From Deltaproteobacteria bacterium (GTDB taxonomy: Bacteria; Myxococcota; XYA12-FULL-58-9), in contig JACRCV010000027.1 of the NCBI GenBank assembly GCA_016218825.1, positions 1 to 64,000 of the forward strand: a stretch of DNA of 64,000 nt, written 5' to 3'. The notes below the pieces were generated by a model. That model had not been told where the DNA came from. It ran no database searches and was given only the letters and a program-made list of their open reading frames with translations. Positions 1 to 63,258 of this stretch are shown piece after piece. The first letter of the stretch is position 1; every line of letters begins with the position of its first letter. The position numbers and the translations under genes were made by a program.

Positions 1-108
1 CCGCGCCCGCGCTCCCCCCCCCCCCCCCGGCGCGTCGCCTTCGGCGCCGCACTCGGCCCGCCCCCGAGTGGGGCGGGCGACATCGGTCCACCTCGAGAAC
101 TCGATCGC
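1..108 (+). repeat. Dispersed hairpin repeat, copy R1
   Basis: First of eight copies (R1-R8) of an intergenic element described under R7. Visible parts are the C-rich linker (12-28), a small hairpin (CGCC 36-39 with GGCG 43-46), hairpin C (GCCCGCCCC 56-64 with GGGGCGGGC 70-78) and the end motif CGAGAACTCGAT (94-105). The linker is CTCCCCACCCCCACCCC in other copies. Here it is CT followed by fifteen C, the same total length, so both A positions have become C. The left end runs off or close to the window edge. Confidence 0.75.
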
Positions 109-1392: not shown

Positions 1393-3462
1393 ATGGAGTT
1401 GGAGATCCGGGACGTCCAGTCGCAAGCCTCGCACCTGATCAGCGAGAAGGGCGCGGTCCTCGGACGCCAGGGCGGCGGCGGCGACGTGCCGGTCCCGGAG
1501 CGCACCGTCTCCGGCAAGCACTGCCGCATCTTCATCAAAGACGGCAAGTGGTTCATCGAAGATCTGCGCTCGTCCAACGGCACCTTCGTCAACGGCACCC
1601 GGATCAACGCGCCGACGCCGCTCGCGGTGGGAGCGAAGTTCACCCTGTGCCGCTACGCCTACGAGGTGACGCGGCTCTTGGGCGAGGAGAAGACCGGCGC
1701 CACCGCGATGCTCGAGGACGCGGCGCTGGTGGCCGGCGGCGAGGTGCTCTCCGACACCCGGACCCGACCGATCGATCGTTCCGGGTCCGGACGGTCGGCC
1801 CCGGAGTTTGCCGGTCCGACGTTGAGATCGCCGGCGTCGGCGCTGCGCGACGCCAACCGCGGCAGCGGGCCGAAGGAGATCTCCGGACCGACGAACGTCC
1901 GGGAGATCTCGGGCCCGGCCGGCGCGGCGCGCGAGCTGTCGGGCCCGGTGGGTCTCGGACGCGAGGCCTCGGGGCCGAAGAGCTCGCCGCGCGAAACCTC
2001 CGGTCGGGGTTCGGCGCCGCGTGAGGTGTCCGGGAGCGGCTCGGCGCCGCGGGATCCCGCGGTGAAGTCGCAGCCGCCGGCGCGCTATTCGGTCCCCACC
2101 GGTGACGGCATGTTGATCCCGGAGCCGTCGGCGTCGGGGGTCGACGAGGCGGCGACGGCGTTGGCGGGGCTCACCGGGACCTCGGGGAGCTGGCTCGAGG
2201 GGCTGTCGACCGCGCTGCCGCGGGCCGCCGCCTACTACCTCACCGCCATCCCCGGTCTGCTCGCGAACCCGATCGCGGCGGTGCAGGGCGGGATCGGCGC
2301 GCCGCGCTTCGGGGCGTTCGCCGCCGGCGAGCTCATCGGCTACGCGCTGCCACCCTATCTCGTGGCGCTGGTGTTGCCGGCGTTGGCCGCGATCGTCTCG
2401 GCCGCGATCCGCGGCGGTATGGCGAGCGCTCTGGTCGTGGCGCTGCTCATCAACCTCGGGGTGGCCGTGGTCGCGGCGCTGCTCGTCGGGGTCTTGTGGC
2501 ACCCGCTGCTCACCTGGTGGGTGGCGCTGCTCAAGGGCCAGTCCGATCAGGTGTCGCGCACCAACATGGCGGTGATGGTGTTCGCCGCGGTCGGCATCAT
2601 GGGGATCGCCGGCGCCGCCGGCGTCGCGCTCAGCGCCATCCCGGTGCCCTTCGTCGGCATCCTGGCGCCGATCGTCTCGGCGGTGGGGTTGCTGATCGTC
2701 TTCTACGTCCAATACAGCTGGTTCCGGCACTTCGAGGTCATGAAGTGGTTTCCCCTCGTGCTCCTGGTTCTCGGGGCGCTGGCGTGCGTCCCGCCGATCC
2801 TCGCCGCGGTGGCGATCGTGCGCGCCGACATCGCGACCATGCGGGGCCACGGCGGCACCTCGACCGTGGCGCTCGCCGATGCGGCGGCGGCGGCCCGGGC
2901 GTTGGACGAGCAGGCCCGAGAGGCCGACAAGGGCGCGGCGGGCGAGATCGCGGAGCTGGCGCGCAAAGCGGAGCAGGCGGCGGCAGCGACCGCGGCGACC
3001 GGTACCCCCGGCGGCGGGGCCGCCTCGTCGCCTGCCGGCGGCAGCGTTGGCGCAGCGCCCGGCGCGACGCCGGCGCCGAGCCCGAGCGGCACGCTGGGCT
3101 CGACCACCGCCGTGCCGTCGGCCGGCGGATCGTCGCCGGCGGCGACCGGCACCGGGAGCACGCCGCGGACACCGCCGACGGCGTATCAGGAGTTCGTGCG
3201 CAAGCGCGACGCGATCGAGGCCGCGATCGACGCCGATCCGACCCTGTTGAAGCAGAAGGGCGTGCTGCCGGTGTATCAGGAGCTGCTGAAGATCACCGCG
3301 AAGATCAAGAGCCGGTGCGGCGGCAAGGCCAAGTCCGGCAAGCGGGGCGGGGCGGACAAGATGGACAAGCGCATCGCCGACAAGCTCTGCGACGCCGAGG
3401 TCTTCGAGGCCACCGGCACCGTCGTCGACCACCTCTACCGGCTGGTGGTCGAGAGGCAATAG
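1393..3462 (+). CDS. FHA domain protein with Yip1-like membrane region
   Basis: A 689-residue protein. Residues 1-92 are a forkhead-associated domain (GR at 24-25, SGKHCRI from 40, SSNGTF 60-65), which in known members binds phosphothreonine peptides. A low-complexity linker follows, with six tandem roughly ten-residue units of the type REISGPxxxx (encoded at about 1873-2052). Then come several hydrophobic helices (about residues 270-480) that resemble a Yip1-type membrane domain. The rest is an Ala/Gly/Pro-rich stretch and a basic C-terminal domain with Lys-rich helices and two Cys. The ATG at 1393 follows GGTGAGGG, whereas the upstream in-frame ATG (1354) has no ribosome site. The likely role is a membrane-anchored sensor of Ser/Thr kinase phosphorylation; no kinase gene is in the window. 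Confidence 0.85.
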   Translation: MELEIRDVQSQASHLISEKGAVLGRQGGGGDVPVPERTVSGKHCRIFIKDGKWFIEDLRSSNGTFVNGTRINAPTPLAVGAKFTLCRYAYEVTRLLGEEKTGATAMLEDAALVAGGEVLSDTRTRPIDRSGSGRSAPEFAGPTLRSPASALRDANRGSGPKEISGPTNVREISGPAGAARELSGPVGLGREASGPKSSPRETSGRGSAPREVSGSGSAPRDPAVKSQPPARYSVPTGDGMLIPEPSASGVDEAATALAGLTGTSGSWLEGLSTALPRAAAYYLTAIPGLLANPIAAVQGGIGAPRFGAFAAGELIGYALPPYLVALVLPALAAIVSAAIRGGMASALVVALLINLGVAVVAALLVGVLWHPLLTWWVALLKGQSDQVSRTNMAVMVFAAVGIMGIAGAAGVALSAIPVPFVGILAPIVSAVGLLIVFYVQYSWFRHFEVMKWFPLVLLVLGALACVPPILAAVAIVRADIATMRGHGGTSTVALADAAAAARALDEQAREADKGAAGEIAELARKAEQAAAATAATGTPGGGAASSPAGGSVGAAPGATPAPSPSGTLGSTTAVPSAGGSSPAATGTGSTPRTPPTAYQEFVRKRDAIEAAIDADPTLLKQKGVLPVYQELLKITAKIKSRCGGKAKSGKRGGADKMDKRIADKLCDAEVFEATGTVVDHLYRLVVERQ

Positions 3463-3490
3463 ACCGTCTTCAGGGGGACGTGATACACTC

Positions 3491-3574
3491 GGGGGCGGGG
3501 GATTCAGGGGGTGGGGGTGGGGAGCGACGCCGCATCGGCGGCGCGGGCATCAGATGAAGGCGAAAACGGTCTAG
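3491..3574 (-). repeat. Dispersed hairpin repeat, copy R2 (G-rich on + strand)
   Basis: The element lies in the convergent gap between the FHA gene and the LiaF-like gene. Bases 3504-3574 match R3 (5690-5760) in inverted orientation at 68 of 71 positions. Hairpin A pairs CGCCGC with GCGGCG. On the + strand 3491-3522 holds five runs of four or five G separated by short loops, a strong G-quadruplex pattern in the 3' end of the FHA transcript. Only one arm of hairpin C is kept. Confidence 0.8.
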
Positions 3575-5069: not shown

Positions 5070-5693
5070 ATGAGCACGCACGAAGACGATCTCCTCAAGG
5101 GCAGTGAAGCCCGGCTCTGGCGGCTGGTGGCCGCGCGCACCCAACCCGGCGCTGACACCAAGGCTATCGACGAGCGGATCTGGGATCTGTTCGGGGACGA
5201 CTGGGCGGTGATGTTCACCGACCTGTCGGGCTTCTCGCGGCAGGTCGCGAGGTTCGGCATCATCCACTTCCTGCAGGTGATCTACGAGCAGAAGCGCCTG
5301 CTCTTGCCGATCGTCGCCGATCATGACGGCATCCTCATCAAGACCGAGGCCGACAGCTTCTTGATCCTGTTCAAGCGGGCCAAGGGCGCTCTCGAATGCG
5401 CGGTCGTGTTGCAGCGTGCCTGTCGACAGATGAACGAGCGCCGCCTGCCGGAGGAGCAGGTCCTCCTCTGTCTCGGTATCGGCTACGGCCGGATCCTGCG
5501 CATCGGCGACGTCGACGTCTTCGGCGCCGAGGTGAACGCCGCGAGCAAGCTCGGCGAAGACACCGCCAAGGCCAACGAGATCCTCATGACCGGCGCCGCG
5601 ATGAGCGCCGCCGGCAATATCCCGGGGCTGCGCTACGAAGACCTCGGCCTCGCGGTGCCCGGCTCCGACCACAACTACCGGGTCTTGTACTAG
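5070..5693 (+). CDS. Class III nucleotidyl cyclase-like protein
   Basis: A 207-residue, single-domain protein that matches the class III adenylate/guanylate cyclase fold. Visible motifs are FTDLSGFS with metal-binding Asp51, KTEADSF with base-contacting Lys91 and second metal Asp95, and DVFGAEVNAASK with Asp149 and Asn156. The position of the transition-state Arg (usual pattern N-x-x-x-R) is Lys160. No sensor or membrane domain is fused, which is short for the family. It may be an active cyclase, a weak one, or a nucleotide-binding relic. Its TAG stop lies inside repeat copy R3. Confidence 0.82.
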   Translation: MSTHEDDLLKGSEARLWRLVAARTQPGADTKAIDERIWDLFGDDWAVMFTDLSGFSRQVARFGIIHFLQVIYEQKRLLLPIVADHDGILIKTEADSFLILFKRAKGALECAVVLQRACRQMNERRLPEEQVLLCLGIGYGRILRIGDVDVFGAEVNAASKLGEDTAKANEILMTGAAMSAAGNIPGLRYEDLGLAVPGSDHNYRVLY

Positions 5694-5760
5694 GCCGTTT
5701 TCGCCTTCATCTGATTCCCGCGCCGCTGATGCGGCGTCGCTCCCCACCCCCACCCCCTGA
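5690..5760 (+). repeat. Dispersed hairpin repeat, copy R3
   Basis: A copy of 71 bases nearly identical (68 of 71) to R2 in opposite orientation. It contains GATTCCCG, hairpin A (CGCCGC 5721-5726 with GCGGCG 5731-5736, loop TGAT) and the linker CTCCCCACCCCCACCCC. It fills the convergent gap between the cyclase-like and UbiB-like genes and supplies the TAG stop codon of the former (5691-5693). Confidence 0.8.
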
Positions 5761-18367: not shown

Positions 18368-18539
18368 TTGATTCCCGGCGGGCGCTTCGCGCCCGTCCTC
18401 CCCACCCCCACCCCGGAGCGTCGCCTGCGGCGCCGCTCTCGGCCCGCCCCCGGGTGGGCCCGGGTGGGGCGGGCGACATCTTTGATTCCCGGCGGGCGCT
18501 TCGCGCCCGTCCATCGGTCCAGCCCGAGAACGCGATCGG
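18368..18539 (+). repeat. Dispersed hairpin repeat, copy R4, with nested second hairpin
   Basis: This copy fills most of the 267-base gap between ychF and dacA. In order it holds TTGATTCCCG, hairpin A (GGGCGC 18380-18385 with GCGCCC 18389-18394), the linker CTCCCCACCCCCACCCC, hairpin B, and an expanded hairpin C. Then a second hairpin A unit (18481-18511) lies between two CATC tetranucleotides (18477-18480 and 18512-18515), inside sequence that in R1 reads ACATCGGTCCA. The end motif reads CGAGAACGCGAT. The flanking CATC looks like a small target duplication. Confidence 0.8.
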
Positions 18540-51165: not shown

Positions 51166-51195
51166 TGGCGCGAAGCGCCCGCCGGGAATCAAAAG
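51166..51195 (-). repeat. Dispersed hairpin repeat, copy R5 (partial)
   Basis: Only the hairpin A end remains: GGCGC-GAA-GCGCC (from 51167) followed by CCGCCGGGAATCAAAAG. It matches R7 and the nested unit of R4, in minus orientation, in the gap between the lipoprotein pair and the LD-carboxypeptidase gene. Confidence 0.65.
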
Positions 51196-55807: not shown

Positions 55808-55833
55808 CCCCAATCAGCAGCACGCGATCAAGT

Positions 55834-55907
55834 CCCCGCCCCACCCGGGGGCGGGGATTTAGGGGTGGGGGTGGGGAGCGGCGCGGCGGCCGCGCCGCGG
55901 GAATCAA
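55834..55907 (-). repeat. Dispersed hairpin repeat, copy R6 (G-rich on + strand)
   Basis: This copy lies in the convergent gap between suhB and the transporter gene. Hairpin C pairs CCCCGCCCC (55834-55842) with GGGGCGGGG (55848-55856). Hairpin A is a 9-bp stem, GCGGCGCGG (55878-55886) with CCGCGCCGC (55890-55898), followed by GGGAATCAA. On the + strand 55847-55876 has five runs of four or more G. Confidence 0.8.
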
Positions 55908-55941: not shown

Positions 55942-57195
55942 CTATAGGTTACAGAGCCCGAGGCGAGCCCGGCGCCAGAGAAGCGCGAGGAGCGCGGTGG
56001 CGATGGCCGCCGACAGCACCAGCACCAGGAAGATGCGGGTCAGATCGCTCGGGTCTTCCTGGAACAGGTTGCCGATGACGAGCTCCTGCACCGCGGAGCC
56101 GACCGAGCCCATGCCGTTGATGATGCCGGCCGCGGCGAGCGCGTACTTGCGCGAGCCGACGTCGATGGCGCCGGCGCCGCTGATCAAAGAGTCCGGCCCG
56201 TAGAGCATGAAGCCGGTGAGGCTGTAGGCGATCCCGAAGGCGACGAGCGCGTGCGCCCCGGCGACGTAGAGCATCACGGTGCTCGCGAACAGGCCCACCA
56301 TCATCATGAAGGCGACCGCGGCGCGCCGGCCTTGGAACAGGCGGTCGGACGCCCAGCCGGCGGCGAGCACGCCGACGAAGCCGAAGAGGTCGAAGAGGGT
56401 CGAGAAGTAGCCGGCGTTGTCGTGCGCCAGGCCGAACGACAGCTGCAGGAAGTACGGGGTCCAGCTCCACAGCGCGTAGCGGATGAACTTGATGAAGAAG
56501 TAGAAGCTGCCCATCATCAGGATGGTGACCAAGAGCGGGCGGTTGAAGCCGGTGACCGGGGCGGCGGCGCTCGCTTGCGGCGTGTCGTCCCTAGGCGTGA
56601 CCGTGTCGGAGATTGGCGCCAGGCCGACGTCCTCGGGGCGGTTTCGCTGCAGGGCATAGAACAGGAACCAGACGCCGGTGAGCACCAGCGACGCCGCCCA
56701 GAACGAGTAGCGCCAGCCGGCGACGCCGAGGATGAAGGCGGCGAAGCCCTTCGCGAGGGCGCCACCGATCTGGTAGCAGGTGGCCCAGACGCCCATCACC
56801 CGGCCGCGCTCCGCCTGGCGAAACCAGTTCGCCATCGTGCCGACGTTGCCGGACCAGCCGGTGGCTTGGGCGAGGCCGTTCAGCGCCATGAACGCCATGA
56901 AGGTCCAGGCGTTGTTGGCGAAGCCGAACACCGCGTTGCAGGCGAGGGAGATGCCCATGCCGGCGAGGAGCAGGCGGCGGGCGCCGATCCGTGAGCCGAT
57001 GGCGGCGGCGTTGAACTCGCCGACGGCGTAGGCCACCAGGTAGACCAGGCCGATGTTGGCGAGGGTGTGGGCGTCGAGGCCCAGCTCCTGAGTCAGATCG
57101 CCTTTGACGACGTAGAACGTCTTGCGACAGAAGTAGAACCCGGCGTAGCTACACCAGGTGCTGACGAAGGCGCGGATGCGAAAGGCGCGCAACAT
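55942..57195 (-). CDS. MFS transporter, organophosphate:phosphate antiporter type
   Basis: A 417-residue membrane protein with about twelve hydrophobic helices. The N-terminal YAGFYFCRKTFYVVKGDL (residues 18-35) is typical of the GlpT/UhpT (OPA) branch, which swaps sugar or glycerol phosphates for phosphate. GWSGNVGTMANWF and YGPDSLISGAGAIDVG are further OPA-like blocks. The ATG at 57195 is used; an open frame extending upstream only translates repeat R7. No phosphate-sugar genes adjoin, so the substrate is open. Its promoter should be in the 334-base divergent gap that also holds R7. Confidence 0.87.
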   Translation of the reverse strand: MLRAFRIRAFVSTWCSYAGFYFCRKTFYVVKGDLTQELGLDAHTLANIGLVYLVAYAVGEFNAAAIGSRIGARRLLLAGMGISLACNAVFGFANNAWTFMAFMALNGLAQATGWSGNVGTMANWFRQAERGRVMGVWATCYQIGGALAKGFAAFILGVAGWRYSFWAASLVLTGVWFLFYALQRNRPEDVGLAPISDTVTPRDDTPQASAAAPVTGFNRPLLVTILMMGSFYFFIKFIRYALWSWTPYFLQLSFGLAHDNAGYFSTLFDLFGFVGVLAAGWASDRLFQGRRAAVAFMMMVGLFASTVMLYVAGAHALVAFGIAYSLTGFMLYGPDSLISGAGAIDVGSRKYALAAAGIINGMGSVGSAVQELVIGNLFQEDPSDLTRIFLVLVLSAAIATALLALLWRRARLGLCNL

Positions 57196-57336
57196 CGCCG
57201 CATCGTGTGACAATGTCAGCGCGGGCGCGGGGATTATGGGGGCGACGGTCAACGGGTTTCGCTCACCAGGAAGGCGACACCTACATAGGCGAGCAGTGGT
57301 GCGAGGGCAAGGGGAACCACCGTTGCCGCCAGGGCC

Positions 57337-57480
57337 ATCGAGTTCTCGGGCTTCGCCGATGTTGCCCGCCCCACCCGGGGGCGGGCCGAGAGCGGCGCCT
57401 GCCGCGCGACGCTCCGGGGTGGGGGTGGGGAGGACGGGCGCGAAGCGCCCGCCGGGAATCAAAAGAAGCGAGAACTCGAT
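57337..57480 (-). repeat. Dispersed hairpin repeat, copy R7 (most complete)
   Basis: A 144-bp element with perfect 12-bp terminal inverted repeats ATCGAGTTCTCG (57337-57348) and CGAGAACTCGAT (57469-57480). Inside are hairpin C (GCCCGCCCC 57364-57372 with GGGGCGGGC 57378-57386), hairpin B, the linker GGGGTGGGGGTGGGG (57416-57430), hairpin A (GGGCGC 57436-57441 with GCGCCC 57445-57450) and GGGAATCAA. It fills the 334-base divergent gap between the transporter and acyltransferase genes. The rest of that gap holds no gene. Confidence 0.85.
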
Positions 57481-57529
57481 CGCCTGTGCGTGGTTGACAG
57501 CCTCACGGGCCTCGGCTAGTTCGCCAGGC

Positions 57530-58417
57530 GTGGATCTCGCCACCGTCACCGCGCGTTTGTTGAAGCTTGCGACCAAGGTTTCGGACGAGGTCGGCAGCAT
57601 CATCTCGAACCCCGAGCTCGACGCCCGCATGGATCGCGTGCCCGCCAACCTCGGGCCCTACGGCGTCGACCCTTTCGGCTTCGATCCCGAGTACTTGAAG
57701 AAGTGCATGGGGATGGTGTCCTGGATCTATCACAACTACTTCCGCTGCCAGGTGTTCGGGGTCGCCAACGTCCCCGAGGGCCGTTGTCTGCTCGTCGGCA
57801 ACCACTCCGGGCAGCTGCCGTTCGACGCCGCGATGGTGTCGACCGCGGTGTTCCTGGAGCGCGAGCCGCCGCGCTTCGTGCGCAGCATGATCGAGCGCTT
57901 CGTGCCCGATACGCCCTTCATCTCGACCTTCATGGCGCGCTGCGGCCAGATCCTCGGCACCCCCGAGAACTGCCGCCGGGTGCTGTCGAACGGCGACGCG
58001 ATCTTGGTGTTCCCTGAAGGGGTGGGGGGGCTCAACAAGACCTGGCGGGATCGCTACCGGCTGCAGGAGTTCGGCCAGGGGTTCATGCGCCTGGCGATCG
58101 AGACCGCGAGCCCGATCGTGCCGGTGGCGGTGATCGGCGCCGAGGAGCAGGCGCCGACCTTCATCAACGCCAAGTTCATCGGCAAGCTCTTCGGCGTCCC
58201 GGCGTTTCCGATCACGCCGACGAACCCGCTGTTGCCGGTGGTCGGGCTGTTGCCCTACCCGACGCGCTATCGGATCTACTTCGGCAAGCCGCTGCAGTTC
58301 ACCGGCGACGCCAACGACGAGGACGAGGTGATCCTGAAGAAGGTCGATGAGGTGAAGGCGACGATGCAGGCCATGATCGACGACGGCCTGGCGGCGCGCG
58401 AGCACGTGTTCTGGTGA
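57530..58417 (+). CDS. PlsC-like phospholipid/glycerolipid acyltransferase
   Basis: A 295-residue acyltransferase of the PlsC/LPLAT superfamily, which transfers acyl groups to lysophosphatidate-like acceptors. The catalytic block is VGNHSGQLPFDAA (89-101), with His92 and Asp99. The acceptor-binding block is ILVFPEGVGGLNK (158-170). The spacing of His and Asp follows the 'NHSGQLPFD' subgroup. There is no clear membrane helix; the N-terminal 45 residues are helical. The start is the GTG at 57530, since the frame further upstream runs through R7. It lies 16 bases before the SDR gene. Confidence 0.88.
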   Translation: MDLATVTARLLKLATKVSDEVGSIISNPELDARMDRVPANLGPYGVDPFGFDPEYLKKCMGMVSWIYHNYFRCQVFGVANVPEGRCLLVGNHSGQLPFDAAMVSTAVFLEREPPRFVRSMIERFVPDTPFISTFMARCGQILGTPENCRRVLSNGDAILVFPEGVGGLNKTWRDRYRLQEFGQGFMRLAIETASPIVPVAVIGAEEQAPTFINAKFIGKLFGVPAFPITPTNPLLPVVGLLPYPTRYRIYFGKPLQFTGDANDEDEVILKKVDEVKATMQAMIDDGLAAREHVFW

Positions 58418-62102: not shown

Positions 62103-63118
62103 AGCGAGCGCTGCGCCTCGGGATCAGTCTCGGTTTGAGCGGCCTGTTTCTGTGGTTCGCGTTTCACAACGTCGACCTCGACACGATGTGGGCGCAGCTG
62201 CGGCAGGTCCGGTGGTGGGCGGTGGTCGCGTTCGCGCTCCTGACCATGTTGATCCAGCTGTGCCGCATCTTGCGCTGGGAGGTGCTGGTCCGGCCGTTCG
62301 TCAAGATCTCGACCCCGACCCTGTTCCGGGTCTCCGGCCTCGGGCTGATGCTGATCATGGTGTTGCCGCTGCGCCTCGGCGAGTTCGCCCGACCTTACCT
62401 GTTGAAGAAGGAGACCGGGGCGCCGTTCTCGGCCGGGGTCGGCTCGGTGGTCGTCGAGCGGGCGATGGACGGCCTGCTGGTGACCGTGTTGTTCTTTCTC
62501 ACGACCTTCCTGCTCGGCGCCTCGCACCCGGTGCCGCGGCCGCTGATGGCGGCGGCGGTGGCGGCGCTACTGTTCTTCGCCGCGGTGACCGTGGTGATCA
62601 TCTTTGCCCTCATCACCGAGGCCCGCACCCTGGCGCTGGTGCGCCGTTTGGGGACGCCGTTGGCGCCGAGGCTCACCGAGCGCGCGGTCGGCATGCTCGG
62701 CGCGTTCGTGGTCGGGCTGCGCTCGCTCCCCGACGTCCGGGCCCTCGCGGTGTTCATCGGCTACACGTTGATTTACTGGGCCGCGAACGGCTGGGGCATG
62801 TACCTGGTGATGCGCGGCATGGGCTGGGACGTGCCGCTGTTGGCCGGCTTCACCATCGTCTGCGTGCTCGTCATCGGCATCATGATCCCGGCGGGCCCCG
62901 GTCACCTCGGCACCTTCCAAGGGGCGCTGTTGGCCGGGCTGTCGATCTTCAACATCGGCGCCTCCGAGGCCGCGGCCTACGGGATGGTCATCTATCCGCT
63001 GACGCTCCTGGTCATCATCGCCTTCGGCGTGCCCTATCTCTTCGGGCACGGCGGCGAGGTGTCCGAGATCATGCGGGCGTCGGCGGCGGCTGAAGAGGGC
63101 GCTGCCGGTCCAAGCTAG
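62099..63118 (+). CDS. Flippase-like (lysylphosphatidylglycerol synthase TM / UPF0104) membrane protein
   Basis: A 339-residue integral membrane protein with about eight hydrophobic helices. The pattern LRILRWEVLVRPF is near the second helix, LPLRLGEFARPYLL sits at residues 85-98 and IPAGPGHLGTFQGALLAG near residue 265; these are the conserved blocks of the MprF-type flippase / UPF0104 family. No synthase domain is attached. It is translationally coupled (GTGA) to the CpsB-like phosphatase, a pairing that hints at envelope polysaccharide or lipid export. It converges with the lyase gene across R8. Confidence 0.85.
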   Translation: MKRALRLGISLGLSGLFLWFAFHNVDLDTMWAQLRQVRWWAVVAFALLTMLIQLCRILRWEVLVRPFVKISTPTLFRVSGLGLMLIMVLPLRLGEFARPYLLKKETGAPFSAGVGSVVVERAMDGLLVTVLFFLTTFLLGASHPVPRPLMAAAVAALLFFAAVTVVIIFALITEARTLALVRRLGTPLAPRLTERAVGMLGAFVVGLRSLPDVRALAVFIGYTLIYWAANGWGMYLVMRGMGWDVPLLAGFTIVCVLVIGIMIPAGPGHLGTFQGALLAGLSIFNIGASEAAAYGMVIYPLTLLVIIAFGVPYLFGHGGEVSEIMRASAAAEEGAAGPS

Positions 63119-63136: not shown

Positions 63137-63258
63137 TTGATTCCCGCGCCGCAGCTGCCGCGGCGCTCCCCACCCCCACTCCCCCAACCCCTCGCCCCCG
63201 GGTGGGGCGAGGGGCGCCGATCCATGAGCGCGGCCGAGAGCGGCCGCGCGGGAATCAA
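63137..63258 (+). repeat. Dispersed hairpin repeat, copy R8
   Basis: This copy fills the convergent gap between the flippase-like gene and the ammonia-lyase. It starts TTGATTCCCGCGC and ends with its exact reverse complement GCGCGGGAATCAA (63246-63258), because a second inverted hairpin A unit (GCGGCCG 63230-63236 with CGGCCGC 63241-63247) closes it. Hairpin A is GCGCCGC/GCGGCGC. Hairpin C is an 11-bp stem, CCCCTCGCCCC (63188-63198) with GGGGCGAGGGG (63204-63214). It may serve as a bidirectional terminator. Confidence 0.8.

Follow-up and report, generated by a model that had tools for sequence, protein, structure and literature searches.

Similar short stretches of DNA lie dispersed among the genes of the window, i.e., the initial 64 kb of C118, one of the 121 contigs of a 6.54 Mb genome (G000), and raise the question of whether they represent a single family, why their stems remain paired and how they reached their present positions. 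The repeat is a short two-hairpin DNA of ~110–160 bp without a gene. Very probably, its copies are non-autonomous mobile repeats (MITE/REP-like) in which one palindromic core resides in at least two insertion frames and which were recently amplified in one lineage of the Myxococcota.

The common core comprises TGATTCCCG, hairpin A, the C-rich linker CTCCCCACCCCCACCCC and hairpin C. Class I elements consist of a variable outer end, then TTTGATTCCCG, hairpin A and CTCCCCACCCCCACCCC, and after a short spacer hairpin C and a tail, while class II elements possess an additional hairpin B after the linker and the outer ends CAGGGCAATCGAGTTCTCG and CGAGAACTCGATCGCC. A sequence-only reading of the window had grouped eight copies (R1 to R8) into one family. 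The shared core bears out this grouping; the single element does not hold and is replaced by two insertion frames, with R1, R4 and R7 belonging to class II and R2, R3, R6 and R8 to class I. Likewise, all eight places exist, but the layout proposed to be common to them (GATTCCCG, hairpin A, linker, hairpin C) is shown in full by R4, R6, R7 and R8 alone, and parts of it are absent from R1, R2, R3 and R5. Positions in the following refer to the window, and genes are those called by a codon-usage gene finder in the present analysis rather than by a published annotation:

1-108 (+): R1, class II, reduced at the contig end to its C-side half, with hairpin C at 56-78 and terminal inverted repeat (TIR) at 94-106
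3459-3574 (-): R2, class I, youngest subfamily, with CTAG end at 3571-3574 and truncated hairpin C
5690-5760 (+): R3, class I without hairpin C, its CTAG end being the stop codon of gene 5070-5693
18368-18539 (+): R4, complete class II element between tandem genes
51166-51195 (-): R5, truncated solo hairpin-A unit without linker or hairpin C
55833-55907 (-): R6, complete class I core between convergent genes, with hairpin C at 55833-55857, linker at 55861-55877, hairpin A at 55878-55898 and GATTCCC at 55899-55905
57330-57486 (-): R7, class II with all parts present, in the order TIR, GATTCCC, hairpin A, linker, hairpin B, hairpin C and TIR
57330-57348 (+): R7, outer TIR on the hairpin-C side, CAGGGCCATCGAGTTCTCG, one mismatch to the family TIR
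57363-57388 (-): R7, hairpin C
57415-57431 (-): R7, C-rich linker (G-rich on the + strand)
57432-57453 (-): R7, hairpin A, GGCGGGCGCTTCGCGCCCGTCC, with GATTCCC before the hairpin at 57454-57460
57469-57486 (-): R7, outer TIR on the hairpin-A side, CAGGCGATCGAGTTCTCG
63137-63258 (+): R8, class I core with hairpin A at 63146-63166, linker at 63167-63183 and hairpin C at 63188-63213; behind it lies a solo hairpin-A unit in inverted orientation, which extends to 63258

R7 is located between the divergent genes 55942-57195 (-) and 57530-58417 (+). The perfect 12-bp terminal inverted repeat ascribed to it (ATCGAGTTCTCG / CGAGAACTCGAT) was confirmed and belongs to the longer family TIR, which places the true limits of R7 at about 57330-57486. 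Close to its C end, R4 has received another hairpin-A unit (18482-18512), which is bordered by ATC on either side. The end of R2 opposite to its CTAG coincides with the TAG stop (3460-3462) of gene 1393-3462, and its GATTCCC is altered to GATGCCCG; the gene upstream of R8 has its TAG stop at 63116-63118. What remains of R1 is the side with hairpins B and C, preceded by a poly-C stretch (1-30) that is probably an assembly fault at the repeat.

The family is real and far above chance, since the linker 18-mer, with at most one mismatch allowed, occurs 87 times genome-wide versus 5 times for the reversed pattern, and a covariance model built on 25 copies yielded at least 150 matches in G000 (E-values from 2.9e-18 to 1.4e-5). 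The proposed dispersed family thus extends to far more than a few additional copies. Overall, 76 distinct copies were extracted, of which complete ones free of other insertions were taken for alignment. With the same model, G001, a genome of the same genus, gave 7 matches, and six further genomes from the class gave none. In GTDB r220, the exact core pattern gave no match and a relaxed pattern retrieved two MAGs only; searches of viral contigs and plasmids for the repeat were likewise negative. The second MAG with the core (G020, ZH-Oct18-46) harbours 13 copies (within L263-L281), which run on over ~200 bp into another module, conserved and rich in palindromes, CCTGCCGCGCGCCCAAC ... GGGCGCTTGGCGCCCTCGCACTC ... 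GAGGGTCATTTTTCGGCCC; an Rfam scan of three of these loci gave no match. G020 was deposited as Proteobacteria, its gene content, however, looked delta/myxobacterial, and no spread across phyla is therefore claimed.

Recent mobility is apparent from empty sites. At nine loci with both neighbouring genes conserved in G001 or a second related genome (G002), the intergenic region of the relative is devoid of the element, and none of the orthologous loci examined in the sister genomes carries one. The clearest case is L070 versus L227: in G001, the convergent genes are only two bases apart (GAATAG-CA-CTACTTG), whereas in G000 a 120-bp element resides between the two stops. Together with 10-bp target duplications, these sites agree with the non-autonomous mobility suspected from the ends of R7.

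Class II is a MITE according to its 19-bp TIRs and its target-site duplications, with no parent transposase found. The TIR pairs lie ~155 bp apart in 12 copies, 8 of which are flanked by direct repeats of 9–10 bp just outside the element, as compared to a mean of 0.65 when flanks were shuffled among copies. R7, the flanks of which contain no detectable duplication, and three other class II copies lack a clear one. No bias towards gene ends is evident for class II. A DDE transposase acting in trans on the class II ends would generate the 10-bp duplications; ends and duplications are observed, the enzyme is presumed. Both the ends and the duplication length may be akin to those of the ISAs1 family.

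Class I, by contrast with class II, is tied to the 3' ends of genes. Its neighbours (n = 48) comprise 27 convergent, 19 tandem and 2 divergent gene pairs, versus 9, 31 and 8, respectively, for the gene pairs of the window. In half of the A-side genes (22 of 44), the stop codon ends 16–20 bp before GATTCC, and 20 of these 22 stops are TAG, compared to 19 of 49 genes in the window. CTAG is present at both ends in the youngest subfamily, and in only 6 class I copies altogether; it is only in this subfamily that terminal inverted repeats of class I are clear; outer-repeat pairing of class I as a set is not significantly above that of shuffles (93 of 1000). CTAG occurs 18 times in the window, 14 times at gene ends or between genes. 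Class I may accordingly insert at CTAG-type sites, which are rare and located mostly at TAG stops and between genes; insertion there would leave the flanking reading frames intact, such that copies survive at gene 3' ends. We infer CTAG to be the true class I target from few young copies; position and empty sites are directly observed. We take the association with stop codons to reflect a preference for certain targets, on which selection has acted by removing damaging insertions.

Ends, units and core have been shuffled, as indicated by a different interior within class I ends and by hairpin-A units occurring alone or inverted (second copy in R4, R5, right end of R8, L032 and L079). At L157 1501-1628 and L159 (G000 C98:56822-56949, C114:57901-58028), the interior of another repeat is enclosed by class I ends of the CTAGACCG type, which demonstrates a swapping of frames and interiors. 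Hairpin C is moreover an insertion hotspot in which other insertion sequences land: one and the same part of it is adjoined by no fewer than three distinct insertion-sequence-like ends (AGATTGGATGAGGTGG..., AGTGTGTGAAGATTTGG..., CTGACTCGGGATC...) (L001, L002, L016, L028, L035, L037, L038, L042, L049 and L076). IS110 (PF01548) was considered for this role and rejected, as it is absent from G000. REPs are similarly targeted by insertion sequences, with IS110, IS3, IS4 and others inserting into them (PMC1525189), and the several unrelated ends at one part of hairpin C are reminiscent of this; unlike there, the repeat that receives them lacks the tag of a REP.

Stem sequences had been proposed to differ between copies and nevertheless to remain paired by compensatory change. 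In the 25-copy alignment, 98.1 % of the cells are paired versus a mean of 87.9 % after shuffling (0 of 500 shuffles as high), sliding of the partner columns lowers pairing to 47–62 %, and 9 pairs are changed on both sides. Because related rows inflate pairing counts, a tree-aware null was applied, with the inferred substitutions redistributed over random columns along the tree; two hairpin-A pairs were significant, no off-helix pair was, and hairpin C is too little varied for a good test. In G020, the hairpin-A stems of the 13 copies are nearly all different and well paired (88 of 101 cells versus 65 % with the arms swapped). Compensation is hence upheld, while the selection on structure deduced from it is not required, as palindrome correction could also produce pairing. 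An origin of the paired changes from mutation, by template switching or palindrome correction in single-stranded DNA, instead of from selection is possible, if somewhat doubtful, and is compatible with mobility. It would account for hairpin-A types differing mostly by C-G to G-C double swaps in near-perfect palindromes and for the tree giving 14 single-branch pair-to-pair double changes versus 9 broken-to-paired ones; broken intermediates (C-T, C-C, A-C), however, remain in several copies, and stems with widely different sequences are found well paired in three genomes. In the mobile-repeat reading, movement would require paired hairpins, be it for recognition or for folding of the single strand, or the hairpins would persist as useful or harmless structures at transcript ends.

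A 3'-end RNA role of the repeats is possible, judging from predicted folds and positions. The predicted RNA structures exceed shuffles in stability (z from -1.1 to -2.9); in those of R4, R6 and R7, not R8, the C-rich linker prefers pairing with the 3' arm (GGGTGGGG) of hairpin C. The G-rich strand GGGGTGGGGGTGGGG has predicted G-quadruplex potential. In G020, 9 of the 13 copies start 0–11 nt from a gene stop, and 4 of them supply this stop as the TGA of TGATTCCCG. One could envisage the core as a portable 3'-end module docked on stop codons by different mobile frames in at least two bacterial lineages and acting as terminator or mRNA-end protector, a proposal we regard as rather unlikely; if true, transposition would rewire transcript ends genome-wide. 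Unlikely, and a little more so, is a core that acts at 3' ends as a conserved element (transcription terminator, stabiliser of mRNA 3' ends or bidirectional insulator between convergent genes) and is kept at gene ends by selection, not spread by transposition. The concentration of class I downstream of genes and its rarity between divergent ones, its fixed distance to stop codons, the stop-codon proximity in G020, the paired stems and the RNA folds would all suit such an element. This reading is opposed by the absence of any copy from the corresponding positions in the sister genomes, by target duplications showing that class II inserted, and by the indifference of class II to gene ends. Moreover, the hairpins are not followed by a U-tract: in the aligned copies, the T tract of an intrinsic terminator is found after neither hairpin A nor hairpin C on either strand.

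Among mobile repeats, a quite improbable alternative is that of REP/BIME-type repeats moved as single strands by RAYT (Y1 HUH), with hairpin A and TTGATTCCC as the REP unit. Three Y1 (RAYT-type) transposase genes are present in G000; none of them is flanked by core, linker or either TIR within the fetched 0.5–1.5 kb, and a RAYT partner was therefore rejected. Nor are Y1 enzymes known to duplicate 10 bp of target, as class II does. The family lacks two defining features of REPs, viz. a tag beside the palindrome and a RAYT gene flanked by the repeat: neither GTAG nor CGTC is located next to the hairpin, its conserved neighbour being TGATTCCC. Resemblances to REP/BIME/REPIN (PMC3733652, PMC2817692, PMC3116915) include high-copy palindromes, convergent or downstream location, the solo and inverted hairpin-A units, and repeat ends supplying TAG stop codons, as reported for REPs (PMC3733652); differences are the missing tag, the larger two-hairpin core with its C-rich linker, the lack of linkage to RAYT genes and the 10-bp target duplications of class II. 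Finally, chance pairing in a 70 % G+C genome, where any stem pairs readily (88 % in shuffles), has a negligible probability and is rejected by the shuffles, the slid partners, the two helix pairs alone significant on the tree, and a copy number of at least 150.

For the preferred reading of non-autonomous mobile repeats, a transposase or RAYT-like gene with matching ends was looked for and not detected: the Y1 genes are unlinked, and no pair of class I or class II ends occurs at transposon-size spacing in G000, i.e., no autonomous element was found. IS630 (PF13358), considered as parent for insertion at CTAG/TA, is absent from G000. G000 is a MAG, and MAGs often lose insertion sequences; a missing autonomous element weighs less for that reason. 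Also counting against this reading are R7 and the three other class II copies without clear target duplications, the small number of class I copies with CTAG at both ends, the outer repeats of class I pairing no better than shuffles, and a core whose conservation exceeds that of the class I ends, an uncommon trait in a MITE.

The repeat represents an undescribed family of small mobile DNA in bacteria, of a type already known. Rfam 15 contains no match to it above the gathering score, the window giving only the tmRNA gene (RF00023; 15041-15405, - strand), and the best sub-threshold match, at R6, is CC0196 sRNA (E = 0.7, 17.3 bits of 35). No such repeat in Myxococcota is described in the literature searched, and a search by sequence gave unrelated papers only; the statement that no named family has this layout accordingly agrees with Rfam and the literature covered. 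The closest parallels include BOX/RUP/SPRITE of Streptococcus pneumoniae (PMC10969869), which are likewise short, geneless and intergenic, with TIRs, target duplications, nested insertions and possible RNA hairpins. Unlike these, the present family has a conserved core common to two frames with different ends and target rules, lacks a detected parent transposase and has class I ends less conserved than the core. The Tn3-derived TIMEs (PMC4133298) are also small mosaic elements without a transposase gene, but differ in their ends and in their target duplications of 5–6 bp.

The family records how small mobile DNA spread recently and on a large scale in a little-studied phylum, with clear target duplications and empty sites, and shows one structured core serving two insertion modes. 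The strong tie to stop codons renders directly testable whether mobile hairpins become gene-end signals. In practical terms, the repeat and the insertion sequences landing in it fragment assemblies of such genomes. Among the 150 model matches listed, 16 are located within 250 bp of a contig start (e.g., C3:136, C24:115, C30:116, C46:116 and C20:130) versus ~0.7 expected, a pile-up attributed to copies interrupted in hairpin C by other repeats, which break the assembly.
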